A DNA stretch of 64,000 nt from Psilocybe azurescens (Eukaryota > Basidiomycota > Agaricomycetes > Agaricales > Agrocybaceae). Location: NCBI GenBank assembly GCA_023853785.1, contig JAJIRX010000549.1, forward strand, positions 124,001-188,000, given 5' to 3'. Positions 36,924 to 63,617 of this stretch are shown here, one piece after another (the first letter of the stretch is position 1; every line of letters starts with the position of its first letter). The notes under the pieces are model-generated. The model ran no database searches. It worked only from the letters and a program-made list of their open reading frames with translations, and was not told the DNA's origin. A program made the position numbers and the translations under genes.

Positions 36924-37332
36924 CTCTAGGCACCCAGAACACGGTGTCAAAGCGCCAAAAGGAGAGATAGCGGTAGGATTTGAGGTATTGGAGATTGGGA
37001 TGCAGGACTCTGGGCTCTGGACACCCAGAACACAGCGTCAACACGTCCGAAGAGGAGAGGTTGGGTGGAGGACTCTGGGCTCTAGACACCCAGAACACAG
37101 CATCAACACATCGAAGAGGGAGAGGTTGGGTGGAGGACTCTGGGCTCTAGACACCCAGAATACAGCGTCAACACGTCGTAATGAGAGAAGGTAGAGGTTG
37201 GGTAGAGGTATAAGTGGAAGTGGTCAAAATGAAGAGAGACGAAGTTATGTGAGTGAATTAGTGTGTATTAAAGAGAGAGATAAGTAGGAGTAGACAGACG
37301 GCCTGTAGAAGCACTCTAGACACCCAGAGTGC
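36924..37332 (-). repeat. Hairpin array, left arm (five copies, 65-base units)
   Basis: Copies sit at 36924-36939, 37015-37030, 37080-37095, 37145-37160 and 37311-37332. The three at 37015/37080/37145 are spaced exactly 65 bases apart inside a tandem unit that also carries 'cagcgtcaacac' and 'gagaggttgggtgga'. On the minus strand each reads stem-GTGT-stem, for example TTCTGG GTGT CTAGAG; the first copy has loop GTGC. The 37311 copy is the strongest: minus-strand GCACTCTGG GTGT CTAGAGTGC, nine pairs with one G-T. Confidence 0.85.
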
Positions 37333-37379
37333 GTTGGTTGTCGTCAAAGAGGTTGAGAAACGACTTAGGACAACAACTG

Positions 37380-37524
37380 CATCAGCAAACCTTGGGATGC
37401 TAGCTAGCACTACATAGCACTATGTAGAGGGGGACCTTTGCTATGACACTAGGGCATGCTATGTAGTACTACATAGTACTCGGTAGCATCGTTTTGTGCT
37501 ATTTTTAGCACAAAAAAATCAGGA
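37380..37524. mobile_element. Small palindrome-rich element with ~10-base terminal inverted repeats
   Basis: The ends are CATCAGCAAA (37380-37389) and TTTGCTGATG (37515-37524), perfect inverted repeats about 145 bases apart. Inside are TGCTAGCTAGCA, CTACATAG-ca-CTATGTAG, CTATGTAG-ta-CTACATAG, and TTTTGTGCTA-TTTT-TAGCACAAAA, four near-perfect palindromes in about 110 bases. There is no coding capacity. It resembles a very short MITE; a two-base 'tg' flank on both sides is too short to prove a target duplication. It sits at the turning point between two oppositely oriented hairpin arrays. Confidence 0.5.
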
Positions 37525-37648
37525 TTTGCTGATGTGGCACTAGTGTTTGTCAGTGTCTTTGCATACAAACATCACGTGTGCACTTCGTCCGCACCTCACT
37601 TCGACTGTTGGCACTTGTGACATTGTCACTTGTGCCTTCCCGTCCACT

Positions 37649-38045
37649 ACTCTGGGTGTCTAGAGTCGTGGCTAGGGTAGCAATATCGCCCTCGGCTCTG
37701 GGTGTCTAGAGTCGTGGCTAGGGTAGCGCAACATCGCCTTGGCTCTGGGTGTCTAGAGTCGTGGCTGAGGATGTTACTCTGGGTGTCTAGAGGAACAGCG
37801 ACTCGCCCCACGGTTGGTTCACGGTTCTCTTCTACGCTCTGGGTGTCTAGAGTGAGGACTGATACTGTGTCCGGGGCAATGGCAATATATGTGCGATGTT
37901 TCCGACCGATGCCTCCTGGTGCACCACTTCCCTTCGACTCGCCGGTTGACTGACGGGCGCTCTTCTCGGCTCTTACTCTGGGTGTCTGGAGTGGTGCCTG
38001 ATATATCTTGAGGCTACTCTGAAGTCTTGTTCTGGGTGTCCAGAA
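37649..38045 (+). repeat. Hairpin array, right arm (seven copies)
   Basis: Copies sit at 37649-37666, 37695-37712, 37743-37758, 37777-37792, 37837-37852, 37976-37991 and 38030-38045. On the + strand each reads stem-GTGT-stem, for example ACTCTGG GTGT CTAGAGT and TTCTGG GTGT CCAGAA. The first three share a 46-47-base unit with 'cgtggctagggtagc'. The orientation is opposite to the left arm. The array lies just past the 3' end of the minus-strand gene ending at 38122. Confidence 0.85.
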
Positions 38046-38121
38046 TGTTTGACTTCGCTATTGACATGGCATAACTGGGTATCGATTGTAAGTACATATT
38101 GGAATCAAACTAATTGGTATA

Positions 38122-39773
38122 CTAATTATTGTATGCTATGATTACAGGGAACGCCATCTCTGGCTCGGGTTGCAAAAAGCTCAACTCTTTGCTAGTGAGG
38201 TTCGACAACCAGGTTTTGTCGTAGAAGTTCCTCGGGAGGCCCTTGATAGCCGACCTGGTGCTCGGTGTTGCCCCTGCAAGACGCGTTCGTTCTCGGTATG
38301 GATTTCCGGGCTTTGCATTTCCATAACGATTGTACCGATTGAAATCACGGTCAATCATTTGGAGATATGGAATGAGTTCTCGACTACGCCAAGCGACCGA
38401 CCTGATAACAAACTTGCGGGGTTACTTCCACATTCGACACTGCTTTCGTCAGAGCTCGTACCGCCCAAACCAAGCCTAGTCGCAACAACCCAAAGGAAAT
38501 ACCATACATCATCAACACTTCCATCAGACTTGCTTTTGTTTCCGTCCGTTATTTCAATTCGGAGGTCTTTGAGCTGAAATTCGGTAAGCATCCAGCTATT
38601 TGTTTAGATAAATGAATGTCAACTTACATGGTGTCGCCTAGCATCCCGTCTTGTCACCTTCTGCATCTTTTTTCTTCTTTTGGGAGTTGCGAAGTTTCAC
38701 CTCTTTATCGTCTTCGCCCTCCTTCGCTTGCCAACTCTTCCATTCCTTCTTGAGGTTCCCAAAGCGCTGCCAATACTTCTCATAAATAACAGGCCATTCG
38801 GACTTCTCAATGCGCAAAGGTTCCCCTTGGTTTTCCAAGAAATCGTCAAAAACATCTCGGCCAGGGCGACGTTCCACGGCTCCTTCTTCTTGTAGGCGAA
38901 TGCAAGCTCCATTGGAATAAGCTTTGGACCTTCCCCTTCTCCGTCAGCAAAGGCTTCAACAGTATCTTTGGTTGGCTGTGGAAGTTTACGGATCTCATTG
39001 TCGTTCTGCACCTGGAGAAGTTTGTTCATATGTTTCCGGATTGCCGACTATGGAAAAATCAGTCCACCATTTTCTTTTGAAGACATTTATTTTCTTACCA
39101 CCAACTCGCGTGTTCTTGGAATCCTCTCTCTATTCGATTGCTCGACAATCGTCCCAGTAACATTTTTCTTTGAGGTCCGTATCGGAGCGACCTACTTGCC
39201 CGAATTCTGGCCCTGAGTCGCAAGGACGATCTGGACAATTGCCGCAACTTGCTCTGGTGTCATTCCAAGTGGCTGAAGTAACAACATTGGCATGTTTGTG
39301 GGATTGGGTGTTGGCTTGGTGGTGGGATTGAAAGGCTTTGTAGAATCCACTCGTAATCGTGGCCCAGCACCTCCAGCGTGGTCTTTGGAAATGAAAGACA
39401 GGCTTTGGGACGGAAGATTTATCATCGTTCTGTGAGAGAGTCAGCGTAGATCTCCAAGACAAAAAGGCATCTTACCAATTCTTCCCCGTCGTCCTCGTCA
39501 TCGCCGTCATCGCCCTCCTTGTCACTATCACTGTTGGACTCGGGCGGTCATTTCATCATCATCATTGTTCAACGCAGCACGACGGTGTTTTCTCCCCGTA
39601 ACTTTCTTCCCTTCCTGTTTTTTGGTTCCCTTGTCGTCATCGTACATGTTGACATCATCACCTTTGAATTTATCGTCGTTGAATTCAATTGGTTCCTGGC
39701 CCCGTTCCTCAGCATCCTTCACCATAGAGCTTGAGTCTCCCTCATTCGAAATGCTCTCTTTGGTTGTCAGCGG
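38122..39773 (-). pseudogene. 3' part of a host gene split by the retrotransposon
   Basis: Minus-strand pieces, in order from the insertion: LTTKESISNEGDSSSMVKD, an acidic-basic stretch (ALNNDDDEMTARVQQ lies in another frame), LLQPLGMTPEQVAAIVQIVL, KLLQVQNDNEIRKLPQPTKD, MELAFAYKKKEPWNVALAEMF, SEWPVIYEKYWQRFGNLKKE. After introns come LTEFQLKDLRIEITDGNKSK, DDVWYFLWVVATRLG and GLPRNFYDKTWLSNLTSKE, with the end at 38122. I recall proteins with a 'GLPRxFYDxxWL' end and a 'SSDESS' string as a multi-copy mushroom family of unknown function (memory only). Some frame changes (near 38890) are not explained by introns. The 5' part is at 57056-58094. Confidence 0.6.
39770..39773. repeat. Target-site duplication, left copy (gcgg)
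   Basis: The four bases gcgg precede the TG of the left LTR and recur directly after the CA of the right LTR (57056-57059). A five-base duplication (agcgg) is possible only if the terminal A of the LTR is counted as flank. Confidence 0.75.
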
Positions 39774-41705
39774 TGAGATGTTTAGTGCGGGGTGACTTTG
39801 TAATTGCCCAATACACAACACCCAATCAAAATATTTATATTGATCAGTTCGATCTGGGAGGGTAAGCTCGTAAGGCTTATTACAATAACTAGTTTAGCAG
39901 AGTACAGACTTAGACGATCGCTCTGGGGTGACCACTAGTAGCTAGAGAACGCTTTTACAGGCTAGTACACACAAGGCACTTGAATAGTAAGGGTGATCTC
40001 TCTTATATGAGGGCGATCACCAATATCAGGGGGATCGCTTTTGGGGGCGAGTGTACACGGGACACTTGACAGTTTCTCTTTATATAACCCAAACTCAAAC
40101 TTTGTCAAACACTATAAGCGATCACCCGTATTAACACGTAGTAGATCCTTGGTTCCTATAAGCAACTGGGCACACTAGTGTGCACAGTCCTTAGTTTACT
40201 ATAGGCAACGTCCTGAAAACAGTCGGATTTCTCTGACAGTCGTCCCTAGTTACTATGAGCGATCACTAGCCTTTATAGGGTTCCCACCCGTACTTAATAA
40301 TCCCCAGGGCAGTCTTACTATAGGCAACGTCCTGAACAGTCGGAGTTCTCTGACAGTCGTCCCTAGTTACTATGAGCAATCGCTAGTCGTATAGGGTTCC
40401 AATCCGTACTTAACAATCCCCAGGGCAGTCCACGGATGACTTATAAAAGCCTGCTTATCAAATCTAATAGACCTGACGTTGAATATCACAATGGCGATCG
40501 CTCACGAAACCAGGTAGCGCCTAATTGCTTAAGGTGAACTGCAGTGTTCGATTTCTTATCACACAAATCACTAGTCCTCAAGTGTTAACACTAGAATTCT
40601 TATTCAGAGTAAATTCTGATATCAAATCTGGGGTGTAAATTACTTGGTTCCTATTCTAAGATACAGGACTGTTTTTATAGACTAAATAGATACTTTGGCT
40701 TGTGATAATTGAAAGAGACTAAGAGAAAAGGAAGGAAATGGACCGCGTGCTGCCTAGCCTTTGCTGCACCAATTATAATAGTGGAAAGTACTAGTTTGCC
40801 TGGGCTACGGCGCTTATTTGAAGATAACATGGTTGTCCATGCGGCAGTGCCTTCTTGGGTAGCGATCACCCGACTTATTTTATCAGATGGCTCGCGGCTA
40901 AGGCATGTCGGGACTAGATTACTTAGGGGTATATTTCCTAGGAAACCCTTCCAAGGTTCCCCAGCACAGTTGCTATTGGTTTAGGACCCCCTGGAACAGC
41001 AGGTGCCCTTATCATGAGGCAAGTTACCTCTAGTATCGTGTGGCGATCGCCGGCTGGGCGATCGCTCACTCACGTTGGCTGCATTGCAAATTACAAGTTG
41101 TTATAGTCGGATCTATTAGACCGCCATATGCTGAGTTGTACACAAGATTTCAATTGCCAATACATTCGGTCCGTGGGGCGATCACCCGTGTGGCGCGAGT
41201 GATGCCTGATCCCCGAGCGGTTGATCGCCTAATTTAGTGAACAGCCTTTGTGAGGCCTGGACACAGTGATCGCTTTTGCTAATTAATAAGGTTTTCATCA
41301 CTTGGCGATCGCTCGGTAAGACACTGGTGGGTGTTACCCCTTGTAAGAGCCAAGGTCATTTCTTAAGGGTTTCTTCTTTGCATGGGACTAATAGTATGAT
41401 CAATGGAGCGGGCGATCGCTTCGGACGCTTCGGTTAGGGGTTGCTTTGATAGCTGTGTAGGAAACTAAAGGTAGTCTTTGATTCGTAGCACTGGTTAATA
41501 GGCCACACTACACCTTAGTTAGTTTGTAAGGTCTATTACTCTTGTTGGCCCACTAGGAAGTAAAGCCTCAAAGCCTAATAGTCTGGCTGTATCTCCTACC
41601 CTTCACTAGTATAATGTACTAGTTTATTACAGATAACAATCGCAAAAATAAGGGCCTCTGTGTCTCACTATGAATTGTAAGCTCAGAATGGTTTACACCC
41701 TTTCA
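39774..41705 (-). repeat. 3' LTR (left copy)
   Basis: On the element strand it runs TGAAAGGG...CATCTCA (TG..CA ends). It contains two tandem copies of a ~118-base unit (about 40196-40313 and 40314-40430; both end in 'aatccccagggcagtc') that differ at a few bases. Element-strand TATA-like strings occur at about 40077-40087 (TTATATAAAG) and 40671-40680 (CTATAAAAAC). Five GCGATCGC sites are present. Confidence 0.95.
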
Positions 41706-41715
41706 TCTCCCCCCC
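41706..41715 (-). promoter_or_regulatory. Polypurine tract of the retrotransposon
   Basis: On the element strand GGGGGGGAGA directly abuts the 3' LTR (TGAAAGGG). This is the expected primer site for plus-strand DNA synthesis. Confidence 0.85.
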
Positions 41716-42153
41716 AACTAAAAGATGACTGTCCTCAGTCGATCGCTCACTTGGTTTCACTATTACTTTGGGTTTGTCCGAAGATGCACTCCTTCTGATT
41801 TTGGCCAAGTACGGTTATTACAAGTTCAGTTTATTCCTATCAGGAGTTCACTATGTTCCAGTGGGAGGATACCCTCAACGTTAGGCAGCGATCGCCCCTG
41901 GCTGAGATATCTCGTCCCGCGATCCCCTTCCGATATCCGTGATCGCCGTGATGTTTATTAATAGCCATGCCTATAATTAGGCACGGAGATCACCGTCTCA
42001 TTAGCGGGTTTCTTTGGGCGTCAATTTAACTTTAGTCTTTCGGCGCTTCTCTATCGTCGCTGCCGTACACATTTTTTTCACATAAAAAGCTGGGGCGATT
42101 TACTGGCTGGCAGCCCACCTACACCCATCTTTCTCACTGCTCTTTCCCGTATC

Positions 42154-44206
42154 ATGCCTCCTTCTTCTCAAGAGCTTCTCCACCATCTGCAAAAGGCCTG
42201 GGAACTTGCCCACAAAGCCCCGTTCGCCGAGGATCGCCCTGACGCATGAAGAGGCCGCCGTCGTTCTTGGTGAAATGCAAGTTCATCTGGTGAGTTGCAC
42301 GATTCCCGTTTCACTTGTTTTCTCTTATTCAACAATTTCTATTAGTCCAACCACTTCCTCCAGTACGAGGATAAAGACTTTGAAGAATCCGAGTTCGCGA
42401 ATCAGTGTGTCGCCGCACACTTTCGCAACATATTTTCTTGTTTGTTCGGGCACGGTCTCGGACTTTTGAGTTGTACCAGCACTTCTTTCCTCGTGGTCCT
42501 TTCTCTCACGGTAGGTCTTTTATCACTTTGTTTTGCTATTTATATTTTACAGCCGTGACTACTTCTTGTTTAGGAGAACACGATCTCTTGGGACGTGCAT
42601 AGTCTGGCCGGTGCTGCTTTTCTTAGGTCTTGACGGGGATCGTCCCTCCTAGCCCGACAGACGAGGGCGATTGCTCCCTCCTCTGGTCCTCGGGCCACCA
42701 GAACAATGCCCTCTCGCCGCGTCAAAGGGAAAGGTAAAGCTCGCGCCCTTACCCCTCCTCCCGCTTCTCCAGTTGCTGCATCCCCACCTCTCCGTCCGAT
42801 GGAGATCCTGGAGATGTTCGCTCAGGCTGAGGACCGTCGCCACCAGCGCTCTTCCCTCCACGCCCGTAGCAGGTCCAAGCGGCGTTCGGCGATCGCCCTC
42901 TCCCGACATAACTCCAGCACCCGTCGATCCTCCTGCCAAACGAAAACGTGGAACCGCTAAGTCAACGACTGGCCAACGAGGAGTCCACGCCAAGTCATAC
43001 GATCGCAAGAAATCGACGGCGATCGCTGCACTCGAGGCGAACCCTGGTGAGCCTGTTCTGCGGGCGGCGAGTCCAGACGATCCTCCTATCGCTGCTCAAG
43101 AGCTCGCTGATCTAGGCAATCACAAGTCTGTTGTAGGTCACTTTTGCTTTATCTGACTGATTATTTCTGACTTTAAGTGTTTTGCCAGCCTCTGATGATT
43201 TGCGCCCAGTGTGTTTTGTCAAACACACCTTCGGCCTGTACATTCAGCGGCCTTGGCGAGCGTTGTGGACCTTGCCAGAGGCCAAAACCAAAACCCTGCT
43301 CTTTCCGCGCTCCCCACCTGTCCAGATGCGTCTGTACAACCGGTACGCTCAGATGGGATCGCTTTCGGCCAATGGTAAGTTTTTATCTTTTGCAGTTTTA
43401 CCCCGGTATGCTTTTTAACAGATTTCTTTTAGCCCTCACGCTTGCTATGTCGGGATTTGCGGGATGCGCGTCGCCTTGAGGTCGAGGGCGATCGACCTCG
43501 CCGCCCGACTCCAGTCTCGCACGCTTGATTTAGAGTTCCGCCTCTCCGAGACCCTTCAGGCGATCGTCCACAACTTCCCCACCGCCGACAACATTTTAGC
43601 CCCCTTGTTTGATGGTGACGAAGCGCTTGACGAGCGGCCATCGGCTTCTCTCTTTTGATCTGGAGGACCCTTTGAAGTGGGCGATTCCCTCTCCGAAATT
43701 TGCACGAACTCCTTCGAGCCCTTCCCCCTCGCCATCTCGAGCGATTCCCGCAGCTTTATCAGCTGCTTCAAGAATCTGGCTATCTGGATGACGACGGGAA
43801 CTTCGTCCCTCCTGTCCCTCGACCCTCTGATGATCATCCCATGCTCGATTTGGAGGCCGAGGAAGTTCCCAGTGGCAAAGAGTCCAGTGAGGACTCCACC
43901 GAGTCTGTCTCATCTGACAGTGGAGGAGAGAGTTCTTCCGAGGACGGGGATCGCCCGAGAAGGCTCCCCCCTGCCGTAACGGAGGAGTCCTCTGACTCCG
44001 TTTCTGAAGGATCTGCCGAAGAGTCTGAGGACGATCGCCCCCCTCCAAGAAGGCCCGGCTCGCTCACTGACTGTTTTTCACCCTTGCTTTCTTGGGACTT
44101 TATATGTTTTTATATGGCAGTACTTTTCTTTTTGTGCACTTTTTGCATACTACTTAGGATATTTTTCAGGGTTTCTTCCTATAGTAGTTTTATTTGTATC
44201 GCATAA
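42154..44206 (+). CDS. Cargo gene A: Cys-rich, acidic-tailed protein, antisense to pol
   Basis: The ATG at 42154 opens MPPSSQELLHHLQKAWELAH. After introns come LTHEEAAVVLGEMQVHL and a basic/Ser-Pro stretch with APVDPPAKRKRGTAKSTTG. A cysteine cluster then begins an exon at about 43190 (CAQC...SAC...RCGPC...PCSF, six Cys). A helical stretch (RTLDLEFRLSETLQAIV) and a long Ser/Asp/Glu-rich tail (EEVPSGKESSEDSTESVSSD) follow, near 43700-44060. The C-x2-C...C-x2-C cluster suggests zinc binding; the function is unknown. From memory, related Cys-cluster proteins sit in other mushroom Gypsy elements. Several joints need one-base shifts (near 42235, 43480 and 43650). The 3' end may be at 44206 or earlier. 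Confidence 0.5.
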
Positions 44207-44599
44207 TTCTCTTGTAATGAAACCCTTTTTCTTGGTCGGGTGAATGTTTCTTTAAGAAATTAGTTACATTGATCTCTCTTAATTGACCATGCTATCCTTT
44301 TCCTTGCCGAAGTCTTCAGTCCTACTGCTTATTTTACTTTTACTAATTGCTAAGTTTCGCTTTTAAAAACTTGTTAGAGAATCACTAGATTTTTAAAATC
44401 GCAAAATTTCTTCTAAGTCCTCTACCCACGTGGTGATCGCTTCGTAGTGATCGCTACACATGGTGATCGCACCCCCCAACTAAAGATCACAACTCCCTAG
44501 TTGTGTAGAGATCGCCAAGCATTCGCACTGAATTATGTGTAATACAGCGGCCGACCACGTGTGGATCCCATAAGTTATACCTGACCCGGGCGATCCTTT

Positions 44600-44607
44600 T
44601 ATAAAGG
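44600..44607 (+). promoter_or_regulatory. TATA box of cargo gene B
   Basis: TATAAAGG lies 40 bases before the ATG at 44640, a spacing that leaves only a very short leader. A comparable TATA lies in front of gene C. Confidence 0.55.
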
Positions 44608-44639
44608 AGAATCGACATAGTTAGTCTTGTCCCGTAGCC

Positions 44640-46375
44640 ATGGATCCACCTATTGTTCCACCCATTGCGCGCCTAGCCGAAGAGAGGCTCGCTTCTGATT
44701 TCATTCCTCACACAACACCGTACTATCAGCGTGCACTCAGCGAGTATTATCACTTGGATGAGGGTATTATCCAGAGGTATCGCCAGCACCCTTACTCTTC
44801 TGCCCTCGACCGACGCCCCAAGCCTTCGCAAGCTTCTCGATGAGTATTGCATTTATAAACATGAATGCCAGAATCGGGTGTTGAAGCGCAAGTGGACCCC
44901 GTCCTAGGGTTCGTACCACCTCTGCAATCCTTAATCCTAGCCACTGTACAGCTGGTACGTTACTCTATAACTTTTGTCCTGATGATAACACTTTCTGATC
45001 CCCATCTTAGCTCCAGTTCGACATTGCTGACATCAACTATGAAAACGAAGTAGGCATGATTTTTGTTGACCTTGCCAAGTCCTGGATTCAACTAGGCCCC
45101 GTGGGTCTACCACCCGGACGTCTTCACGACCATATCTATGTTCTGATCGCTCGACCGGAGGTCCCCAGTTTCCGTGCCATTGGTCCCGTCATTAGTCGGC
45201 CTATTCGACAGGTAAAACTTTTATTCACAAAATGCTTAGGAACCCATACTGAGCGTTAGAGAGTCTAGATTCTTTATACCTCGTGGATCCAAAGCAATCA
45301 ACAATTTCAGAATAACCAATTACTTCCTCCCCACTTGGCGCCTATCAATATTGGCTGCCCGGCGTCAGGAATATGTTCACCTTTTCGCCAGTTTCCAATT
45401 GGGCGTTCGCTTGGAGCCGCATGGGATATGGAAGTCCAACCGCAAGGCGATCGCTCGAAGGGGATCTCCCTCAGCGATCCACAATTCTCACACTCGTCTT
45501 GGCCGGATTGACTAAACACATAAGTAGCTTTAGATAGCCTATCTGTCTTGTATAGACCAATGTCTAATCCTTTGCCTAATCTCTACGTGCCTGTTCAAAT
45601 TCCCCCAGCCAGGTCTTCTATGAGGACCTTGATTTTCGTTATGCTGTCGCCGACGAATATGAAGACCTAGCCCCGAGATCAAGGCGCTATTTTACCAGGT
45701 TCCCGAAATTATGAACCCTACTAGCGATCCCGTTGCTTATCACAATTTGTTGTACGACCTCAACGCTGCTCACCAGAAATTCAAGCGGGCGTTCTACCAG
45801 AAACAGAAAGAACAACCTAGTTCCGGTCGTCCCCCTTTGGCAGAGCTCATCCAACTGACTCATCTCTTGGTGCGTAGAAACAGTTATCAGAAGTTAATGT
45901 TGGCTAGACTCATGATCTCTTAGTTGGCAATTCCTCGTGGTGACATTCACTTTGGGCAATACTCCGGTCAAGCATTTCAGACTGCCGCGTATCACTGGTT
46001 CCGCGTGTGCGCAGCACCCATTGCTTGGGAGCTCAGTTCCATCAGTTTTTCACTCTCATGTCGGACCCGACAGTGCCAAGGTTTCCCCAACAATGATCCT
46101 TACCCGTCCCGTGTAAGCGCTAATCACTTTTACTAGATGGGTTTAGCAACTGATGGAGCCTTTTTCAGCTGATCCGGGCTTTTTACCGACGGGTACCCGA
46201 ATACTACAGCGCTCTGAGAACCATTTTTCCTATCCGCCACTTCCTATTGACTTTGGAGTGCCGTCGTTTGGAGTATTCAGCCATCTTTAAGCGTTATAGT
46301 GCTCCTCTTCGTCCCCGTTCTGTTGCTTTCCATCCTGGAAATATAGAGGAAATTCCGGACCATTTCCGCCCGTAG
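44640..46375 (+). CDS. Cargo gene B: unknown protein, many short introns
   Basis: Exon pieces read MDPPIVPPIARLAEERLASD...PYYQRALSEYYHLDEGIIQRY; then, in a shifted frame, LRKLLDEYCIYKHECQNRVL. Next come QLQFDIADINYENEVGM and IFVDLAKSWIQLGPVGLPPG, TWRLSILAARRQEYVHLFAS, and NPTSDPVAYHNLLYDLNAAH. Last are ELIQLTHLLV and a final exon ending EEIPDHFRP-stop at 46373-46375. No domain was recognised. Composition is that of a soluble, helical protein. Introns between these pieces have GT..AG ends. One or more one-base shifts are needed. Confidence 0.45.
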
Positions 46376-46546
46376 TTTCGCGAATTTAGCTGCATCAGTT
46401 TTCTAATCACTTCGTATTAGGCTTGTTTTTACATACGAACTGATTTGCAAATGTCTACCACGCGCTTGCCCAGTGTCTTCTCACTTCTGCAGATCTTGTC
46501 AAGCGATCGCTCGCCCATTGATCTTTCTATGAGAGGGTTCTTCCAG

Positions 46547-46552
46547 TATAAG
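46547..46552 (+). promoter_or_regulatory. TATA box of cargo gene C
   Basis: TATAAG lies about 46 bases before the ATG at 46593, similar to the spacing in gene B. GATCGC-type motifs fall between the TATA and the ATG. Confidence 0.45.
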
Positions 46553-46592
46553 AGGGATCGCCCTATTGTCAAGCGATCTCCCTCACTTCATC

Positions 46593-47880: not shown

Positions 47881-48067
47881 TTGTCTGTCCTCCTGAAGTC
47901 CCTTCTAGTTTTCCCCTTTTTGGTAGAGTACCTTCCAATAGCAAACTTCTTAGTCTATTATTGGTTTGGTGTTTCCTCTTATTACCCAGTACGAGTTTTA
48001 ATGAAGACGTTTTCGCCGTCCTGGCGATCGCTTGTTCGGGCGATCGTCATTACCGGTTTTAAGATTT

Positions 48068-53164: not shown

Positions 53165-55008
53165 TTATTTTTCAATTGGTTCTCCGTAGCTTTCGCGAGA
53201 TCTGGTAGTCATAATAGGCCGTCGACGATCCACGTCCGCACCCTTCATCGAACTTAATGAAAATTTGATCCTTGTTCCCCATGGTTGAGTTATCCTCGTA
53301 TGATAAGAATTGGTCCACCTTGTTGCCATATTTCTTTTAAGATCACCAAAGACACGGGCGATCTCTGCTTCCTCTGAGTCTTCTGACTGGACTAAACCAT
53401 CATAAGTCTCATCGGGATCAGGAAAATATAGATTCTGGACTAGAGCTTTAGCCACAGATACAACTCCAGGCTTCCCTTATTCATATTCTCAATAACTTCT
53501 TTCATGGTTTTCTCATTATCCTGTCTGACCATGAGACCTCCTGGCAGACGGATTTTCCCATTTTCCCTAATGATCCAACCAAAGCTAATGTGTTTTTCAG
53601 CGGCAGGACATTCTCCCCATCGGTGACCTGGTTCCCTACAGTAGTAGCAGGTATTAGGTCCCACATAGGTTTGCTGACCTGTTGCCCCTGGGGCGAAGTT
53701 TGGTAGTTACTGCTGTTTCCAGGAGTTGGCGATCGCTGGTTACTGGCGTTCGCCTGGCTTCGCTCAATAAGGCTGTGTGTACCTCATTGAACTTCCTATT
53801 CACGTTTTCATTAAATGCCGCTTGGTCTTTAGATTGCTTTAGTAGTAGCTTCATAGAGTCAAGGAGGTTTGCTGTGGCCTCTTCATTCTTAGGTATTACA
53901 TCCTCAGGAATCATAGCGTCACGGTCGAGCGATCGCTTGACGGGCTCATCATCAGTTCGCCTAGTAGAACTCTGGGAAGTTCTTTCAGCTATTGTCACTG
54001 CATGACTGATGACTTCTGCGTATTTGAAGCGATCTTCTAACCTTACGTTGGGCGTTTGCCCGTCGTCTAATGAATCCGCTCTTAGGTCTAACCTATCTAT
54101 TAGTCGGCCTCTGAACGCAGGTGACAGACAGCTCATAAAACGTTCAACCAATTCCCTATTGGATACTAGGGGAGGGTCTTGGGTTATTTTCACTGCTGCT
54201 GCACCAAAACGCTCTTTTGAAAGATAGTAATTCCTCTAGCTGATCAGCTTCGATCAGGTAACGACCACGGTAAGGTTGACATATTTTTGCCAACCTAGAC
54301 AGCGATCCCCTTTTAATGCTGATGCCTCCGGGATAACTACTAATAATTTCATCTCGGTATTGCTCCCAAGTGCCTTCTGCATAGGTATCAAATGCTATCC
54401 ATTCTTGTTCTGTTTCAGCAGACGCATATTTGCCAACTTTCTCTTTCTTAGCTTGATCTTCTTCTATTTTATGTTGTTTAAAGAGATCCTCCATAGATGA
54501 AAGGAATCTCAGCAATTCTGCCGGTTTCCTCTCATCGAATTTCGGTGCATCTTTAGAAGTGGGTAAGGGAAACCCTATTGGTGCCATTTCAACACTGATT
54601 TCGGATTCTGGAATGTCTGAAGGGGCTGGATCTAGTACTAGTCGAGGTTGTAGTCTCGACAAAGTTTCACCACTAGTTTCTGTGTGCTCAGAGATGACTG
54701 GAGCGGGGCTACCAGTTATTGTTTCTAAAGGATAAATGACGGAGGCGGGTCCTGGTCTATTAGGAATCGTCGATATTCTATTGAAGTTCTCAAGCGAACG
54801 TCCCCTCCTATTACTCTCAATAGGGGTTTCTGTTATGCCGGCTGCAATAGAATTACGGGTAGTCCTAGATATTCTAGTTCCTGCTGTGTCTACTATCCCA
54901 AAATCGGGTTTTGGAATTGGTTTGCTACTAAGAGCAGTGTTTTTAGGTTTAGTCGCTTTACAGCGTGCGTCAGGTGGTTTGGTTGGTGCAATGTTTTCAG
55001 ACTTTTAA
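53165..55008 (-). CDS. Retrotransposon gag region with zinc knuckle
   Basis: A Pro/Thr-rich N-terminus is followed by VEMAPIGFPLPTSKDAPKFD, FLSSMEDLFKQHKIEEDQAK, YAEGTWEQYRDEIISSYPGG and LVERFMSCLSPAFRGRLIDR, a capsid-like helical region. The zinc knuckle is CYYCREPGHRWGEC (C-x2-C-x4-H-x4-C) near 53610-53650. The frame changes at about 54180 and 53660. The start codon was not resolved; the frame is open to near 55008. Confidence 0.8.
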
Positions 55009-55103
55009 TCTGAAGGCAAGATAGCGGTGTATTTGGTGCCAAATGCTTATCGAAATTTTTCTCAATGTCAAGCTGGTTTTGCTTTATCTAGTATTAACCC
55101 TCC

Positions 55104-55121
55104 CCTCAGCGGTGGGCTCCA
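55104..55121 (-). promoter_or_regulatory. Primer-binding site of the retrotransposon
   Basis: On the element strand, two bases (TC) after the 5' LTR, the sequence TGGAGCCCACCGCTGAGG begins. TGG matches the CCA end of a tRNA and the position is right. I cannot name the tRNA: it is not the usual initiator-Met pattern (TGGTAGCG...). A half-tRNA primer is also possible. Confidence 0.65.
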
Positions 55122-55123
55122 GA

Positions 55124-57055
55124 TGAGATGTTTAGTGCGGGGTGACTTTGTAATTGCCCAATACACAACACCCAATCAAAATATTTATATTGATCAGTTC
55201 GATCTGGGAGGGTAAGCTCGTAAGGCTTATTACAATAACTAGTTTAGCAGAGTACAGACTTAGACGATCGCTCTGGGGTGACCACTAGTAGCTAGAGAAC
55301 GCTTTTACAGGCTAGTACACACAAGGCACTTGAATAGTAAGGGTGATCTCTCTTATATGAGGGCGATCACCAATATCAGGGGATCGCTTTTGGGGGGCGA
55401 GTGTACACGGGACACTTGACAGTTTCTCTTTATATAACCCAAACTCAAACTTTGTCAAACACTATAAGCGATCACCCGTATTAACACGTAGTAGATCCTT
55501 GGTTCCTATAAGCAACTGGGCACACTAGTGTGCACAGTCCTTAGTTTACTATAGGCAACGTCCTGAAAACAGTCGGATTTCTCTGACAGTCGTCCCTAGT
55601 TACTATGAGCGATCACTAGCCTTTATAGGGTTCCCACCCGTACTTAATAATCCCCAGGGCAGTCTTACTATAGGCAACGTCCTGAACAGTCGGAGTTCTC
55701 TGACAGTCGTCCCTAGTTACTATGAGCAATCGCTAGTCGTATAGGGTTCCAATCCGTACTTAACAATCCCCAGGGCAGTCCACGGATGACTTATAAAAGC
55801 CTGCTTATCAAATCTAATAGACCTGACGTTGAATATCACAATGGCGATCGCTCACGAAACCAGGTAGCGCCCTAATTGCTTAAGGTGAACTGCAGTGTTC
55901 GATTTCTTATCACACAAATCACTAGTCCTCGAAGTGTTAACACTAGAATTCTTATTCAGAGTAAATTCTGATATCAAATCTGGGGTGTAAATTACTTGGT
56001 TCCTATTCTAAGATACAGGACTGTTTTTATAGACTAAATAGATACTTTGGCTTGTGATAATTGAAAGAGACTAAGAGAAAAGGAAGGAAATGGACCGCGT
56101 GCTGCCTAGCCTTTGCTGCACCAATTATAATAGTGGAAAGTACTAGTTTGCCTGGGCTACGGCGCTTATTTGAAGATAACATGGTTGTCCATGCGGCAGT
56201 GCCTTCTTGGGTAGCGATCACCCGACTTATTTTATCAGATGGCTCGCGGCTAAGGCATGTCGGGACTAGATTACTTAGGGGTATATTTCCTAGGAAACCC
56301 TTCCAAGGTTCCCCAGCACAGTTGCTATTGGTTTAGGACCCCTGGAACAGCAGGTGCCCTTATCATGAGGCAAGTTACCTCTAGTATCGTGTGGCGATCG
56401 CCGGCTGGGCGATCGCTCACTCACGTTGGCTGCATTGCAAATTACAAGTTGTTATAGTCGGATCTATTAGACCGCCATATGCTGAGTTGTACACAAGATT
56501 TCAATTGCCAATACATTCGGTCCGTGGGGCGATCACCCGTGTGGCGCAGTGATGCCTGATCCCCGAGCGGTTGATCGCCCTAATTTAGTGAACAGCCTTT
56601 GTGAGGCCTGGACACAGTGATCGCTTTTGCTAATTAATAAGGTTTTCATCACTTGGCGATCGCTCGGTAAGACACTGGTGGGTGTTACCCCTTGTAAGAG
56701 CCAAGGTCATTTCTTAAGGGTTTCTTCTTTGCATGGGACTAATAGTATGATCAATGGAGCGGGCGATCGCCTTCGGACGCTTCGGTTAGGGTTGCTTTGA
56801 TAGCTGTGTAGGAAACTAAAGGTAGTCTTTGATTCGTAGCACTGGTTAATAGGCCACACTACACCTTAGTTAGTTTGTAAGGTCTATTACTCTTGTTGGC
56901 CCACTAGGAAGTAAAGCCTCAAAGCCTAATAGTCTGGCGTATCTCCTACCCTTCACTAGTATAATGTACTAGTTTATTACAGATAACAATCGCAAAAATA
57001 AGGGCCTCTGTGTCTCACTATGAATTGTAAGCTCAGAATGGTTTACACCCTTTCA
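55124..57055 (-). repeat. 5' LTR (right copy), promoter-bearing
   Basis: Same length as the left copy. I aligned the two by eye and found ten one-base insertions/deletions (five extra bases in each) and no substitution. The ~118-base tandem unit is present twice (about 55546-55780). TATA-like strings on the element strand lie near 55427-55437 and 56021-56030. Confidence 0.95.
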
Positions 57056-57059
57056 GCGG
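57056..57059. repeat. Target-site duplication, right copy (gcgg)
   Basis: It follows the LTR end CCCTTTCA and matches 39770-39773. Confidence 0.75.
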
Positions 57060-58094
57060 CATCTTCTGCGTGTGATGCTTTATGGAGCATGACCGTTTCC
57101 GACCCCACTTCAGTGGCACTGGCCATGTGAATGTCTTCCCCACTGGGCAAAGGATTGTTGGGCAAAGGATTGTTGGAGGAATTTGGGGTCGATACGGCAG
57201 CAACCTGAGTGGTTGACCCGTTGCCTAGATTGTCCCTTTTCGCGATATCCCCTCCAGCTTCTCCAGTCATGCCATGAACTCCGATAATTCGGTTTTATAA
57301 ACGTCAACCTATCATTTGTTAGCTTTTAAATGGTTTTGAGGGCACATATAGCTGTACCTGGGCCTCTAATTCAATGATCCGTTCCTCCCTCTGTCCAAGC
57401 AACAATTTCGTCGCCAGTCCTTCCTGTTCGATGAAGCGTGTTTTCTTGGCCTATATATGTTGAAGTCAATTTGCATATACAGGGCATTTTAAGGCATACC
57501 TGAGCCTCTACCTCAGCACTCTTCTGATTAATTATCTGCCTGGTTGCCAATGCATGCTGTTTGACGACCCGAGTTTTCTCGACCATCGATTCTTCCGAGA
57601 TCGGAAGTCGTTCAGTACCCTTATATTTCCCTGCTCTGCCTTCAAGATGGGATGGACGCTATGGGATATTGGCCTTTTTCACTAAATTTGAACTGAAAAG
57701 GTGATCCCAATGCAGGCGCTGGAAGGAATTGAAGTTGAAATTGGTTGGACAGAGGTTATGGCGGACAAACGTCCAGGGCTATCATCCATGAGTGGTCTCG
57801 GAACTGCATCCAGCTGCTCCCCTGCCAATGGGTGGCTCAAGTCGGCACCAGTCCTAGCGCATATCCAAAAGGCAGTGGTATATAACGTGAGGGGGGAGTA
57901 AACACGCCCATGAGATTCTAGATCTCTGTATTAGAAAATGGACAGATATAGCATCGTGTAAATACCTCTTCGTCGTTGGTCGATTTCTGGAATTTGCTGT
58001 TAGATGCGGTGTTTTCGTTCATCTCAACGTCCTTGGTTCTAGTCCGCGGCCTGGACAGTGGTAAAATCTGCTGTAGGAATGAACTCGAAGGCAT
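57056..58094 (-). pseudogene. 5' part of the host gene split by the retrotransposon
   Basis: The ATG at 58094 gives MPSSSFLQQILPLSRPRTRT. After introns come MVEKTRVVKQHALATRQIIN (coiled-coil like), KTRFIEQEGLATKLLLGQRE, and QVAAVSTPNSSNNPLPNNPL to HMASATEVGSETVM. Coding then runs into the LTR at 57055 (HAEDAA|). Joined across the element it continues into LTTKESISNEG at 39773, so the insertion is in an exon. Charged helices suggest a coiled-coil N-terminus. Confidence 0.55.
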
Positions 58095-58503: not shown

Positions 58504-59036
58504 TATGGTCTCGGAGTTGGGAGCAAAGCAAACAGCAAAGAAGTTGATCTTTGTGCTCAATCGCCTTTGAACATCAGAAATGCCCGAAAAACTCCCAGTT
58601 TATGCTTTGAAGAAGGTATGAAAGAAATTGATATATTGGGTTATTGTACTTATACAAGCTCACTACTTCCTAGGTCAAATATTTCAGAGTCAGGGGGCGA
58701 CTTTATTGCCAAGGTGAAACCAGGCCATTCTTTGGCAATATAATGGTCCAAGATGCAGCTCCGAAATTGAAGCAGACACACAGTGCTTTTGGAGATCCAT
58801 TCCCCAAGTCATACATCTACGACTATCACATAGTCATCCTTGAAGGCCGCAAGTCACATGAATTCCAGATATCATGTAAGAACCGAACAGGCCTCGTGTA
58901 CAACAATGTTATTGACAAGATGGGCAGAAAATGGCACGGGGATATTGTGGTCATGAGGATAGGCAAGAAAAATCCGTCTGATCCAGTTGACATGGGTGGA
59001 AAGGATGCAGGACGCGTAGACTTTGCTGTCAAAAAG
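58504..59036 (+). CDS. Hypothetical protein fragment
   Basis: Pieces read SPLNIRNARKTPSLCFEE; then, after an intron ending near 58675, GGDFIAKVKPGHSLA. Next come HSAFGDPFPKSYIYDYHIVI, LEGRKSHEFQISCKNRTGLV and WHGDIVVMRIGKKNPSDPVD, ending KDAGRVDFAVKK at 59036. The ATG at 58743 gives a 98-residue frame; the upstream pieces need one more shift. Not recognised by name. It diverges from the split gene (starting at 58094). Confidence 0.4.
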
Positions 59037-59249
59037 TGAGTTAGTGCATCTGCAATGCAAATTTGTTGAAATTTGATGATATGTCTTACCCTTCAGATTC
59101 TTGTCTTGCGTGAGGCAGTCTGGTTTGAGGGTAGGTGGAGAATGGCTTTGCTTCTGGAGACGTTGAAGATCCAGGAAACGCGATTCTGTAGCTTCATAAT
59201 TTTTTAATATACCCCATTGGTTGATATGCCAGGAGATAGGGTTGAGCGT

Positions 59250-59640
59250 TTAATTGTTTGGCGGTGTTTGGTAAAAGCTTCGGGCGGACTTGGTTCAATC
59301 GCCTTTGGCAGTGTTTGGTAAGAGCTTTGGCGGACTTCATACAATCGCCCAACACACTTCGCAGAGTCCGCCATGCTTGAACAAGATCGTCCACTGGGTG
59401 TCTAGTGCACGATCCCAACCTCAATGTTCAACGCCCAACACGTCCCAACGCACTTCGCAGACACCGACTCCACCCATACTTGACGAGATCGTCCACTGGG
59501 TGTCTAGTGGACGATCTCAACATTCAATGCCCAACACGACCCAACGCAGTTTGCAGACACCGACTCTGCCACGCTTGACGAGATCGTCCACTGGGTGTCC
59601 AGTGGACGGTTTCAATGCTCAAGTGCACCAGTAATACGAC
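59250..59640 (+). repeat. Hairpin-bearing tandem/direct repeat, copy 1
   Basis: Three units of about 95-102 bases share 'cccaacgca', 'gcagacaccgact', 'cttgacgagatcgtcc'. Each carries one GTGT-loop hairpin: 59385-59414, 59485-59518 and 59580-59613. The best has a 15-pair stem, GAGATCGTCCACTGG / CTAGTGGACGATCTC. The whole block recurs at 63255-63590. Open frames across it are repeat artefacts. Confidence 0.85.
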
Positions 59641-59672
59641 CAGGATGCTCACTCTCTGTCTGTCTTCAACGT

Positions 59673-59732
59673 GTTCAGGGTGACCAGAACATATCTTGTT
59701 TGAATTGAACGTCTTCTGGGTGTCCAGAGGAC
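59673..59732 (+). repeat. Two further hairpins beside the 3' end of the heptad-repeat gene
   Basis: 59673-59690 is a degenerate copy with loop GTGA (GTTCAGG GTGA CCAGAAC, one mismatch). 59711-59732 is GTCTTCTGG GTGT CCAGAGGAC, nine pairs with one T-G wobble. They lie 31-90 bases beyond the stop at 59763. Confidence 0.75.
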
Positions 59733-59762
59733 CTCTTTATTTGTGGTATATTGTACTACTAT

Positions 59763-60666
59763 CTACTCCTTACTCTTCGATGAAGCCCGCCTTGCAATCT
59801 GTAAGTCTCGTCAAATGCTGTTCTGCTGATATGCTTATATGTAATTCCTTACCTTCTTGATCTCCTCAGTGGTCTCTCTTCCCCTTGTATTCCGAGCTGT
59901 TTGTGAACTGTTTTTTAGGTAAGTCTTCAGCATGTCATGTACTGGCCAATCTTTCTCGTAGTCTTTCAGGAAACTGAATTCTTTGTGAACCTAGATTCTT
60001 AAAGTAAGTCCTTGAACATAATTTGGGGAACGAAATGTCACTGACAGTCTCTAAGAGCTGATGAACCTTTCTCTTGCTTTGCCCGCGATAGCTCTTGCTT
60101 GTATCAAGCTTCTCCTTGGCCAATTTTGTGACGACACTCTTAAGTTTTCGGTCAGCGGCTTTGTATTTAGACTCTACAGGGTGACTTACCAATACACTGT
60201 CATAGGTCTTCTGGTTCCAACCTAACGCCTTGCTGAGGTTATAGCCGCCTCTTCCTGGACGTGATACATCACCCTTTGGCTTTGGTATCAACCCCTTTCT
60301 GATTCCCTCACTTCCGGTTGCTTCTTCGTCCTCACTCGCTTCTTCGCCGTTGTCGTCGCCCATGATCTCGTCATCATCTGACATGATGAACTCGACCTCG
60401 ATTGCATCTCCTATGGTTGAATGGCCTGGTGATGCGCCACGTTGTACACCCTTTGAAGGAGCTTCAGAAATTCTGACCCGCTTGGGTGGAGTAGTCGCTT
60501 GCCGGACTGGAGTAGTCGCTTGCCGGACTGGAGTAGTTGCTTGCCGGACTGGAGTAGTCGCTCGCCTGACTGGAGTAGTCACTCGCTGGACTGGAGTAGT
60601 TGCGTGCCTGATGTCAGGCATAGGAGAATGCTCTCGTTCTTCTAAAATAATTGACGGAAACTCCAT
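59763..60666 (-). CDS. Heptad-repeat mushroom-family protein of unknown function
   Basis: The start MEFPSIILEEREHSPMPDIR is followed by six to seven copies of a seven-residue unit (ATTPVRQ) from a 21-base tandem repeat. An acidic stretch (DDDEIMGDDNGEEASEDEEA) and GRGGYNLSKALGWNQKTYDS come next. After introns it reads VHKEFSFLKDYEKDWPVHDM, LKTYLKNSSQTARNTRG and finally IARRASSKSKE, with the TAG at 59763-59765. From memory, a 'GYNL..LGW...Y' plus 'DYEDxWxVxD' protein is a large mushroom family; no function is known to me. No frame break was seen. Confidence 0.65.
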
Positions 60667-61194
60667 TCATGGAGTAATGGTAGGAGGAGGGTGAAACACT
60701 TTGGGAGCAAATATGAGCCTAGCCGTGATCAGTGGAAGATGGGTTTCAATCTGAGCATCCATGGTTCGAAGTGTACATTTGCGTTTCGATGTGGACGCAC
60801 TTATAGTCTGATTCCTGTATTGTATTTGCTTTGTATTTCGTTATTAGCTTGAATAATAAGTGCATTGTTTTAAATCTGGATCTGACAGCTTTGTCTTCGC
60901 CTTGGGGATATTGACACCGAGATGACAGTGCCAGGACACACTTACCAGATTTATACATCATCGTCATCTAAGTGTGTCGTTAAGTAAACAATAAGTGAAC
61001 GACAACAATAAAATCGGTTCTCATATAATAGGATGGGTTGACCTCAGAAGCAATTGACATAGTACTATCGACTCTCATGTTTGCTGATCTCCTCTATAAA
61101 TGTTTTCGTCTTGTTTCCGTCTATCTGCGCTGATCACCAGATGAGGTGTGTTTTTAGGGTTCATGAAATAACTTATTAATTATGCATGATTTAG

Positions 61195-62873
61195 GCCTAC
61201 TACAAGTACGCTAAGTTCAAAGGACCAACAGGCCCAGTGAACTGTCTATCTTTCACCCACGGAGGCGAACTACTGGCTAGTGGAGGTACGTATGTCATGA
61301 CTAATGCCTTCGCTGAATCTGAAAGTGTTGTAGGTGACGATGAAGCGGTGCGCATCTGGGAGATTTCCACGAAGAAGTGCCTGGATATTCTCGAAGATCC
61401 TGGGAAACGATGGGGCCAAATTACATGTCTGACCTGGCTGGGCAGCCCAGGGAACGACGAACTGAAGCCAATTGCGTTTGGTACTGGTCGTGGTCTTGTA
61501 GTCATTTATCGGCCGTCCAAGGGTCGATGTAGGCCTTTTTCAACATTTCCTGAATAAATTATGTTGACAACTTTCAAGGCACAAATGGTCGAATTGGCTA
61601 GTAATAGGGTGTTTGAAGCTAGTGACCCAGTTGAAGCAATTGCATTTGACAGCAAAAATCTCACCTTGCAATAACAAGTCACCATGGTAGTATTGCCTTG
61701 TACGATATTGGTAGAAATGGTGAGTTATATCTGGCACCATTGTGGAGTAATATAAATTAGTCGATCAACAGGAACTATGATTGAGCTGTGGTCAGTGAAA
61801 AGCAACGAAAGAAAGAAGATCGGCATACCGCGATCTGTTCAATTTTTGAGGGAGGCAGGAAGATCTTAGTTTTTATTCTGGAAACTGGCGAAATGTAAGC
61901 ACTTTTTGGAACGAAGACCGCTGAGACTTACAGTAGCTCTTCTCAGGGTTTGCCACAATGTAGAGACATCTCGAGAAGAATGGAGAAAGGTCCTGAAGTC
62001 GGGAATGTAAGTCCAAAATAAGCACGATCTTTTGGATACTCACAAAGTTGATCAGTGGCAATGCGACGACCTGTCCCTCAAGCAAGCTATTACTTGTTGA
62101 CAATTTGTCAAAAGGATTTGATTTGTACGACTTACCACGCTCTTCTCCCTCTTGGCGCCTTCGCAATCCCCAGTACCAAGAAGTGTGTCAAAGATGGAGC
62201 CTTTGCTGAGCAGGGATCCGCGATTGTCTGCGGAAGTGACCATGGAAGGGTATATATATTCACCAATTCGTCGTCAATTCCCATCCAGGTCTTGGCCCCT
62301 GCTAGCAAGAGAGTGGAGGTGCAAGCAATCAGTGTACGTCGTGATAATTTCTCTCTTGAATGTACCTCTGACCATGACACTAGACAACGACAACCACCGA
62401 GGCACATTTTATAGCAAGTGGTGTATCGGCCGGGTCTTTCGAGATCACTGTATGGGAAAAGACGGTAAGAAAGAAAAACATACTGAGAATTGTTGAGAAA
62501 CCTACCGATGAATGTCAGATTAAAAAGGCAAAGATATACAATGAAAGTGACTACAATAGCCGAAAGGTCGGAAGGATTTTGAATCTTCTGATAATTCTTC
62601 TGGTATTACATTGGACGTCGGGCGATTTGGGCACCTCTTGCTTCACAGGTAAATATTCCTGCATTATACATGTAAGGAGATACTGATAATTTCAACAGAC
62701 AGCAAGACGTACACTGGAAGGGATCAATCAGATCGTCGAGCAGTCCACCAAGGCTCAGGCAGGAAGGAAAGGACCGGGGATAACTGAATGGGATCCGAAA
62801 GCAGCATTTCCGCCATCGGAGGAGGATGAATATGACGGAGACGGTATCGAATGGGGCAAGCTTCAAGGCTAGA
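61195..62873 (+). pseudogene. WD40-repeat-type protein gene with one-base shifts
   Basis: It opens AYYKYAKFKGPTGPVNCLSF. A ~50-base intron then joins LLASGG to DDEAVRIWEISTKKCLDILE. GRGLVVIYRPSKG, FEASDPVEAIAFDSKNLTL and ITSHHGSIALYDIGRNG follow, with a one-base shift near 61665. GTMIELWSVKSNE and KILVFILETGEM need another shift at the T5 run near 61835. Later come KDGAFAEQGSAIVCGSDHGR, VYIFTNSSSIPIQVLAPAS and an end rich in D/E (AAFPPSEEDEYDGDGIEWGK) with stop near 62873. WD repeats form beta-propeller scaffolds; partners are unknown. The start codon was not settled (ATG at 61141 with an intron is possible). The gene may be intact if the shifts are consensus errors. Confidence 0.6.
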
Positions 62874-62916
62874 AAGGTGGGACGAGCTTTAGTTGGTGTC
62901 GAAAGAAAGGTGGTGC

Positions 62917-63199
62917 ATATCCAACTAGACACCCAGTTGATATGGAGTTGAAAGCGCCGAGAGCAAGGATATGCTTTGGAAGGAAGTTCCCTTAAGAAGT
63001 CTTATTATATTCTCTATTTTTTTTTCATGTAGAAGGTCCCAAGCACTTACCGAATGATATATCTGAATGATTGAGTCGAGTAATTACAAGTTGGTAGGAA
63101 GTCAACTAGACACCCAGTTGACAGTTCCTATGAGAGAGAGGAATATGACCGACGGATATCAACTCCACATCAACCAGACACCTAGTTGATATGGAGTTG
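62917..63199 (-). repeat. Three long hairpins beyond the WD40 gene
   Basis: 62917-62944, 63101-63122 and 63160-63199. On the minus strand all have GTGT loops. The last has an 18-pair stem and its inner pairs are changed to CTAG GTGT CTGG instead of CTGG GTGT CTAG, keeping pairing. Its two non-Watson-Crick pairs are G-T on the minus strand. The array begins about 45 bases after the WD40 stop. Confidence 0.85.
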
Positions 63200-63254
63200 A
63201 GAGCCAGGAGATAGTACGGGTTGAGCGGAGAACGAGCTAGCGGGTGGTTCAATT

Positions 63255-63617
63255 GTTTGGCGGTGCTTGGTAAGAGCTTCAGCAGACTTCATACAATCGC
63301 CCAACACCACTTCGCAGAGTCCGCCACGCTTGAACAAGATCGTCCACTGGGTGTCTAGTGGACGATCCCAACCTCAACGTTCAACGCCCAACACTTCCCA
63401 ACGCACTTCGCAGACACCGACTTTGCCACGCTTGACGAGATCTTCCACTGGGTGTCTAGTGGACAATCTCAACGTTCAACGTTCAATGCCCAACACGACC
63501 CAACGCAGTTTGCAGACACCGACTCCGCCCACGCTTGACGAGATCGTCCACTGGGTGTCCAGTGGACGGTTTCAATGTTCAGTACGAGCTTATAACATGA
63601 GATCTGGGTGTCCAGAT
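63255..63617 (+). repeat. Hairpin-bearing tandem/direct repeat, copy 2
   Basis: A direct repeat of 59250-59640, differing at scattered bases and small gaps. Hairpins sit at 63338-63367, 63437-63470, 63540-63573, plus an extra short one at 63602-63617 (ATCTGG GTGT CCAGAT). The 63437 copy has two adjacent mismatches in its stem. Confidence 0.85.

Follow-up and report, generated by a model that had tools for sequence, protein, structure and literature searches.

Covarying GTGT-loop hairpin arrays in a CACTA/EnSpm-like DNA transposon of Psilocybe azurescens

In a stretch of 64,000 nucleotides from the mushroom Psilocybe azurescens (assembly GCA_023853785.1, contig JAJIRX010000549.1, positions 124,001 to 188,000 of the forward strand; the window hereafter), short hairpins with a common GTGT loop belong to a repeated CACTA/EnSpm-like DNA transposon. 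They stand in arrays upstream of the transposase and of one other gene, designated gene 1, a point that had been missed in a sequence-only reading of the window which had first described the hairpins. The arms of the stems differ from site to site and still pair; selection appears to maintain the folded shape and likely acts on the folding of a single strand.

The hairpin family and covariation of its stems

A scan of the window detects 15 plus-strand and 7 minus-strand GTGT-loop hairpins with at least 6 pairs, and if the sites with a GTGC (36930) and a GTGA (59680) loop are counted, the total of GTGT-type hairpins is 24, as the sequence-only reading had estimated. The interval of 36924-63617 given there holds for two stretches, 36.9-38.05 kb and 59.38-63.62 kb, but not for 39774-57055, where a nested long terminal repeat (LTR) retroelement is situated; the hairpin scan found no GTGT-type hairpin within this LTR element, which stands outside the hairpin system. 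Two further GTGT-loop matches of the window scan, at 3463 and 18850, are unrelated to the family. Among 70 four-base-loop stems with at least 8 pairs on both strands of the window, GTGT is the loop in 15, and every other loop is seen at most twice. Because six of the 24 sites (59398, 59500, 59595, 63351, 63452, and 63555) are copies of one hairpin, independent sites are fewer than 24. Details reported earlier are present as well, i.e., a C-C pair (59398 site), mismatches (63452 site), and a real swap of inner pairs between CTGG/CTAG and CTAG/CTGG, with two G-T pairs in the 19-bp stem of the 63178 site. A genome-wide search (70 Mb), of the kind that the sequence-only reading had proposed, yields 110 matches to the core CTGGGTGTCTAG against 11 for the reversed pattern, 152 against 6 for CTGGGTGTCCAG, and 301 (31+101+118+51) against 65 (17+21+11+16) for CTRGGTGTCYRG with set end letters.

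Covariation was assessed in a gap-free alignment of 37 distinct hairpins, consisting of 22 from family A (the window element and its copies), 14 from family B (C465:3001-13500), and one from family C, which is probably unrelated. Two of the family A rows are indel variants of one site, and three identical 28-mers were removed beforehand. With a model of 12 pairs and a 4-base loop, and with 500 shuffles and slid alignments as controls, 86.9% of the cells are paired, against 66.1 ± 1.6% after shuffling (0 of 500 shuffles as high), and 98 cells are changed on both sides, against 28.8 ± 5.8 in shuffled (0 of 500) and 18-31 in slid alignments. Such double changes occur at 11 of the 12 pairs, a value reached by 2 of 500 shuffles (mean 8.1). 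The innermost pair is invariant and the loop nearly fixed, while outer pairs vary freely; pair 7-22, for example, is C-G in 14 hairpins, U-A in 11, A-U in 6, U-G in 4, and otherwise composed in 2. Since tandem copies related to one another account for some of the rows, significance is exaggerated by the shuffles; the slid controls, in which this relatedness is retained, nevertheless give far lower values.

Two further lineages, G and E, whose sites were picked by their core alone with pairing not required, behave alike when compared with shuffles. At pairs 4-9, lineage G is 98% paired against 77 ± 4%, with 12 double changes against 3.0 (10 distinct sites), and lineage E is 93% paired against 71 ± 5%, with 11 double changes against 3.1 (9 sites). 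The compensating changes noticed in the sequence-only reading are therefore beyond chance. Chance or a set of neutral minisatellites is hardly credible as an origin: some sites are indeed tandem duplicates, but the observed pairing was reached in none of the 500 shuffles, and the first two core motifs outnumber their reversed controls 10- and 25-fold. The possibility raised earlier, that these might be only diverged minisatellites, is rejected, because the arms covary, with an excess of paired changes, and the same holds for the two additional lineages, whose cores are different.

A candidate third GTGT family, family C (CACGATTCTGGGTGTCCAGAATCGTG; C228, C529, C603, and C859, two of the four loci being fetched), is treated as a coincidence, because its surroundings are a repeat full of GATTC palindromes. 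In loci L044 and L045 (C228 and C859), this GATTC-palindrome repeat holds a copy of the GTGT core, and C228 also contains a perfect 20-bp palindrome.

The host element, its lineages, and the layout of the arrays

The left end of the element, CACTGCTGGCAGGGG, is read in the window copy, and the right end is the same repeat inverted in the copies on contigs C515, C19, and C669, so that the termini are CACTG..CAGTG and begin with CAC. Target duplications of 3 bp are present in 2 of 2 copies read at both ends, TCA/TCA in C515 and ACA/ACA in C19. The gene fragment on the right-hand side matches Transposase_21 (Tnp2, PF02992) with an E value of 1.3e-9 and 38 bits against a cut-off of 28.6 (one fragment). 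Pieces from nine contigs (C515, C19, C669, C714, C670, C153, C248, C253, and C715), some of them partial copies, align at about 92-99% in long blocks, and in the C515 copy the left and right borders of the LTR insertion site are directly joined. Identity with Plavaka elements is excluded, since according to the excerpted text of PMC12730594 these end in TGT..ACA (2-bp duplication) or CATCA..TGATG (2-3 bp), unlike the CACTG termini found here.

Genes 1, 2, 3, and 4 and a WD40-repeat gene are common to families A and B (tblastx; the WD40 gene via PF00400), and a transposase fragment with 58% identity adjoins family B (C465:1767-2324). Both families are collinear save for an inverted block of gene 4 and the WD40 gene, with hairpins at both block borders. 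Within family A, 59291-59621 duplicates 63245-63581 of the transposase array (90.6%), and an extra hairpin of family B is located in a segment that repeats part of the B transposase array in inverted orientation (87.7%; L030:4682-4762). From the hairpins at both borders and these array duplicates, we infer that the inversion arose by recombination between arrays.

Gene 1 has at least 65 matches in the genome, copies of A and B included. Eight upstream regions were fetched, seven of them informative (five of a lineage D and two of lineage E), and at least one strong hairpin is present in all seven. A stricter count gives 4-5 hairpins per 1.2 kb for D and 1 and 3 for the two E regions, against a background mean of 0.29 and at most 2 (28 blocks, window 1-33600); the E region with a single hairpin is not above background by this count. 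The eighth region, L037 (C529:51660-52860), holds a 20-bp hairpin but is not taken as a lineage, being a D-type gene 1 copy in which a CCACCTGG repeat takes the place of the upstream part. Repeats of the CCACCTGG/TGGAGTCC kind, with 20- and 23-bp palindromes, form an array both here and upstream of a copy of the transposase (L059, C336:301-1700); this array may belong to a further, separate element.

Loop and inner stem are nearly fixed inside a lineage and different between lineages, the cores being GA[GCGYT]TC in D, GGA[TAT]TCC in E, and GGA[TCA]TCC in G. Lineage G (C746), fetched as a test, has arrays with its own core at both the transposase and gene 1, and the core of lineage E is present at its transposase as well.

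In 9 of 9 arrays, i.e., those of transposase and gene 1 in A, B, E, and G plus that of gene 1 in D (three hairpins), all inverted hairpins detected are distal and all sense hairpins proximal to the start codon, the proximal ones at about 100-620 bases from it. The chance of this order is 2.8e-6 if one array per lineage is taken, a value computed after the pattern had been seen. The patterns used for the layout miss some hairpins, the transposase start codon of B, missed there, is at L030:414, and extra hairpin groups (59291-59735 in A, 4734 in B) lie outside the nine arrays. In the window element, the sense strand reads GTGT or GTGC in the proximal hairpins of gene 1 and GTGT in those of the transposase, the orientation table for the transposase array having been built on the C515 copy. 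A likely intron, assigned by eye, separates array and start codon at gene 1 of A, B, D, and E, and sequence upstream of it is thus plausibly a leader exon. No family hairpin was found in the divergent spacers between genes 2 and 3 and between gene 4 and the WD40 gene of A and B.

A separate hairpin lies shortly before the transposase start codon in A, G, and E (L010 near 1537, L047 near 971, and L048 near 760), and GGGTGTTYTGGTTMAACCA is common, by eye, to those of G and E.

Strand asymmetry and possible functions of the arrays

According to the sequence-only reading, nearly all non-Watson-Crick pairs are G-T, and not A-C, on the strand carrying GTGT. Stems were extended with G-T and A-C treated alike and non-Watson-Crick ends trimmed, and the census covers 23 of the 24 window sites, all but 37151. 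Over 40 sites of families A and B, 400 pairs are Watson-Crick, 42 G-T, 3 A-C, and 22 other. If each sequence context is counted once, and a frequent second pair once, G-T:A-C in these class stems is 20:3 on the GTGT strand, with a binomial p of 0.0005 that is optimistic because some of the contexts share ancestry. Recent changes, defined as departures from each site's majority with members showing more than 6 differences skipped, give a different picture. Among 28 unique stem substitutions of family A, 10 lead from Watson-Crick to G-T and 11 to A-C, and in family B, with indel variants excluded and one stem length set by hand, the figures are 6 and 3. Class stems (20:3) and recent changes of A and B together (16:14) differ with a Fisher p of 0.016. 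The claim of a G-T excess is hence sustained for the class stems but not for recent copies, and the equal ratio that had been named as a sign of absent selection is encountered among young changes and not among class stems. We read the even ratio among recent changes as neutral decay after insertion, with lasting lineages having kept G-T; the contrast resembles a polymorphism-divergence test. As folded RNA, the GTGT strand is the more stable one in 34 of 39 hairpins.

Correction of imperfect palindromes by template switching during replication occurs in microbes, and such mutation alone, with no selection, might keep the arms paired here. The arrays do include tandem duplicates, and 2 of the 28 unique recent stem substitutions of family A make one matched double change. 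We nevertheless regard this as improbable, since 23 of the 28 leave a G-T, A-C, or mismatched pair, and since the excess of G-T over A-C, the fixed loop and inner stem, and the shared two-gene layout would be left unaccounted for.

In the mechanism that we prefer, and hold as plausible though tentative, the arrays are cis-acting hairpins of structured RNA leaders, read by a protein that the element encodes. Divergent transcripts would start between the two half-arrays, and the hairpins would fold as RNA in their 5' leaders. The element-encoded protein would read loop and inner stem, whereas the outer stem would just need to pair, and it would tune expression of the transposase and gene 1. The gene 1 product is a candidate reader by association alone. 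RNA leaders are preferred because G-T pairs are tolerated, start codons are near, and introns in the leaders are likely.

A number of results weigh against this reading. The 20 G-T contexts correspond, owing to partly shared ancestry, to a smaller effective number; lineages D, E, and G show a G-T:A-C ratio of 17:10 (p 0.25), in which one spurious coding-sequence site, L046:1288, is included; and all lineages pooled (37:13) do not differ significantly from recent changes (16:14, p 0.087). The strand signal is accordingly good in A/B and only suggestive overall. The folding comparison of 39 hairpins includes duplicates and partly restates the G-T bias. Distal half-arrays also seem G-T biased in our reading of the stem census, and the RNA model therefore needs divergent transcripts. 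TATA-like words are present between the half-arrays in 6 of 9 cases, with no enrichment shown, since words of this kind also turn up at other upstream positions. Concerning the proteins, an AlphaFold model of a gene 1 homologue (predicted local distance difference test, pLDDT, 80) has no structural relative in the PDB or in a viral library at E<=0.001, and the predicted structure of gene 3 (pLDDT 37) is too poor for a structural search.

Distant transposases set a further limit. C554 and C219, fetched along with lineage G, have no arrays upstream of the transposase, and 12 of 14 upstream regions of distant transposases (one of only 323 bases; start codon located in part of them) are without an array. 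C587 (L058) carries three sense hairpins with another core, and C336 (L059) has four hairpins, among them a 23-bp stem, within a repeat of the CCACCTGG type seen also at L037; this repeat was not scored as an array. Ten of 12 further regions have at most 2 hairpins each, the same scan giving 0.87 per 1400 bases in window 1-32200. None of those 14 contigs appears among the gene 1 matches, a list that is itself a lower bound. In this sample, arrays thus accompany gene 1, C587 and perhaps C336 excepted, an association that makes its product a candidate reader only.

Instead of acting as RNA, the arrays might be DNA-level sites for a TNPA-like protein of the element, in a transposition complex or at a promoter, with a hairpin, a cruciform, or a core-specific dyad being recognised. 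We doubt this somewhat, although it stays a serious proposal in view of the two orientations of the motif and of the bound motif arrays used by plant CACTA elements. The arrangement is symmetric around a centre, and the cores are lineage-specific as expected for coevolution of protein and site. According to the excerpts of PMC2613891, motif arrays of plant CACTA elements are bound by an element protein, and those of soybean Tgm can form stem-loops. However, a double-stranded dyad does not need arms that change in sequence yet remain complementary, a cruciform would pair G-T on one strand with A-C on the other, so that 20:3 would require a strand preference, and the hairpins are not subterminal, starting 3.3 kb from the left and stopping 4.3 kb from the right end of the element (other subterminal motifs were not searched for).

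Unlikely, in our view, is a role of the hairpins or their ACAC complements as transcription boundaries between gene units (3' end formation, termination, or insulation). In favour of it, the spaces past the 3' ends of genes 2 and 4 and of the WD40 gene are filled by arrays, and no family hairpin was found in the gene 2/gene 3 and gene 4/WD40 spacers. But the neighbour on the far side changes, from the WD40 gene in A to gene 4 in B, and the array stays with the transposase; moreover, relative to those 3' ends, the strand that folds better is the antisense one.

Returning to folded leaders in a wider and doubtful form, an Agaricales clade of CACTA elements might possess a fast-changing hairpin code, in which each lineage keeps its own word, made up of loop and inner stem, in divergent leader arrays at the transposase and at a PF28437-type gene, recognised in single-stranded folded form, as RNA or DNA, by an element protein that evolves along with it. 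If so, elements would recognise and regulate their own kind. Arrays that drift in sequence and keep their fold point to recognition of the folded strand, a form of control that would be unfamiliar in a eukaryotic cut-and-paste transposon. With several lineages, each with another core word, side by side in one genome, coevolution of protein and hairpin is directly testable.

Features of the window copy and comparison with known systems

PF28437 is listed (precomputed Pfam) for 41 of 60 gene 1 homologues; Pfam scans of three homologues gave nothing above a cut-off, and a scan of viral contigs revealed no relative of gene 1. The gene 3 product is 98% identical to a Psilocybe cyanescens protein over 98 residues, and PF00400 matches the WD40 gene with an E value of 4e-9 (joined exon pair). 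The octamer GCGATCGC, which resembles the cyanobacterial HIP1 octamer, has 22 copies in the nested LTR element and none in the rest of the window (0.15 expected after shuffling). The 437-bp insertion near the right margin is similar to a miniature inverted-repeat transposable element, with GTGTTAG/CTAACAC ends and a duplication of about 6 bp (CTTTGT), and splits the transposon upstream of the transposase; beyond it, element and transposase resume at C465:189447-190060.

Table 1. Features of the window copy of the element (positions in the window; strand given where assigned).
Feature	Position	Strand	Remarks
Left terminal inverted repeat CACTGCTGGCAGGGG	33648..33662	+	same end in C515, C19, C670, and C153 copies
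Gene 1	34200..36803	-	start codon 36803; 3' end approximate
Gene 1 array, proximal hairpins	36919..37340	-	five sites, loops near 36930, 37021, 37086, 37151, 37320
Insertion of ~156 bp within gene 1 array	37380..37534		relative to other copies; C515 without insertion
Gene 1 array, distal inverted hairpins	37640..38050	+	seven sites: 37656, 37702, 37749, 37783, 37843, 37982, 38036
Gene 2, 3' part	38630..39773	-	boundaries approximate; tblastx vs family B; split by LTR element, continues at 57056
Nested LTR retroelement	39774..57055		17.3 kb; 1.93-kb LTRs, 99.5% identical
Gene 2, 5' part	57056..58094	-	start codon set by eye; tblastx with family B
Gene 3	58580..59040	+	spliced by eye; homologues in Psilocybe cyanescens, Galerina, Gymnopilus
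Third hairpin group	59291..59735	+	sites 59398, 59500, 59595, 59680, 59720
Gene 4	59830..60762	-	boundaries approximate; tblastx vs family B
WD40-repeat gene	61141..62872	+	spliced, boundaries approximate; family B homologue
Transposase array, distal inverted hairpins	62915..63200	-	three sites: 62929, 63110, 63178 (19-bp stem)
Transposase array, proximal hairpins	63337..63617	+	four sites: 63351, 63452, 63555, 63608
437-bp insertion	63858 to C465:188294		begins in window, ends outside

In structured cis-regulatory RNAs of Rfam, the loop is specific and the stem covaries, as in the present hairpins; no Rfam family scored above the gathering threshold in window 33600-64000 and seven further loci. 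Bacterial REP/BIME sequences and the end hairpins of IS200/IS605 likewise consist of short, imperfectly palindromic units that share a conserved core, occur in both orientations, and are bound as one folded strand, but they are bacterial and belong with HUH transposases, whereas a eukaryotic CACTA element is concerned here. Fungal EnSpm and Plavaka elements (Kojima 2025, PMC12730594) have, in the excerpted text, related transposases, and EnSpm termini are CAC..GTG with 3-bp duplications, as here; the words "hairpin" and "subterminal" are absent from the main text of that paper. In the accessible portions of the open-access literature, no description of covarying hairpin arrays in CACTA elements was recognised. 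The closest counterparts, as excerpts of PMC2613891 and PMC4219821 describe them, are subterminal motif arrays of plant CACTA elements, such as Tgmt* and TgmR* of soybean and the TNPA sites of maize En/Spm. Like the present arrays, these contain direct and inverted motifs, are capable of forming stem-loops, and vary in motif by family. In the plant arrays the repeated motif itself forms the stem arms and adjoins the terminal repeats, whereas the present arrays combine a constant loop and inner stem with covarying outer arms and are situated kilobases inside the element, at the starts of genes.

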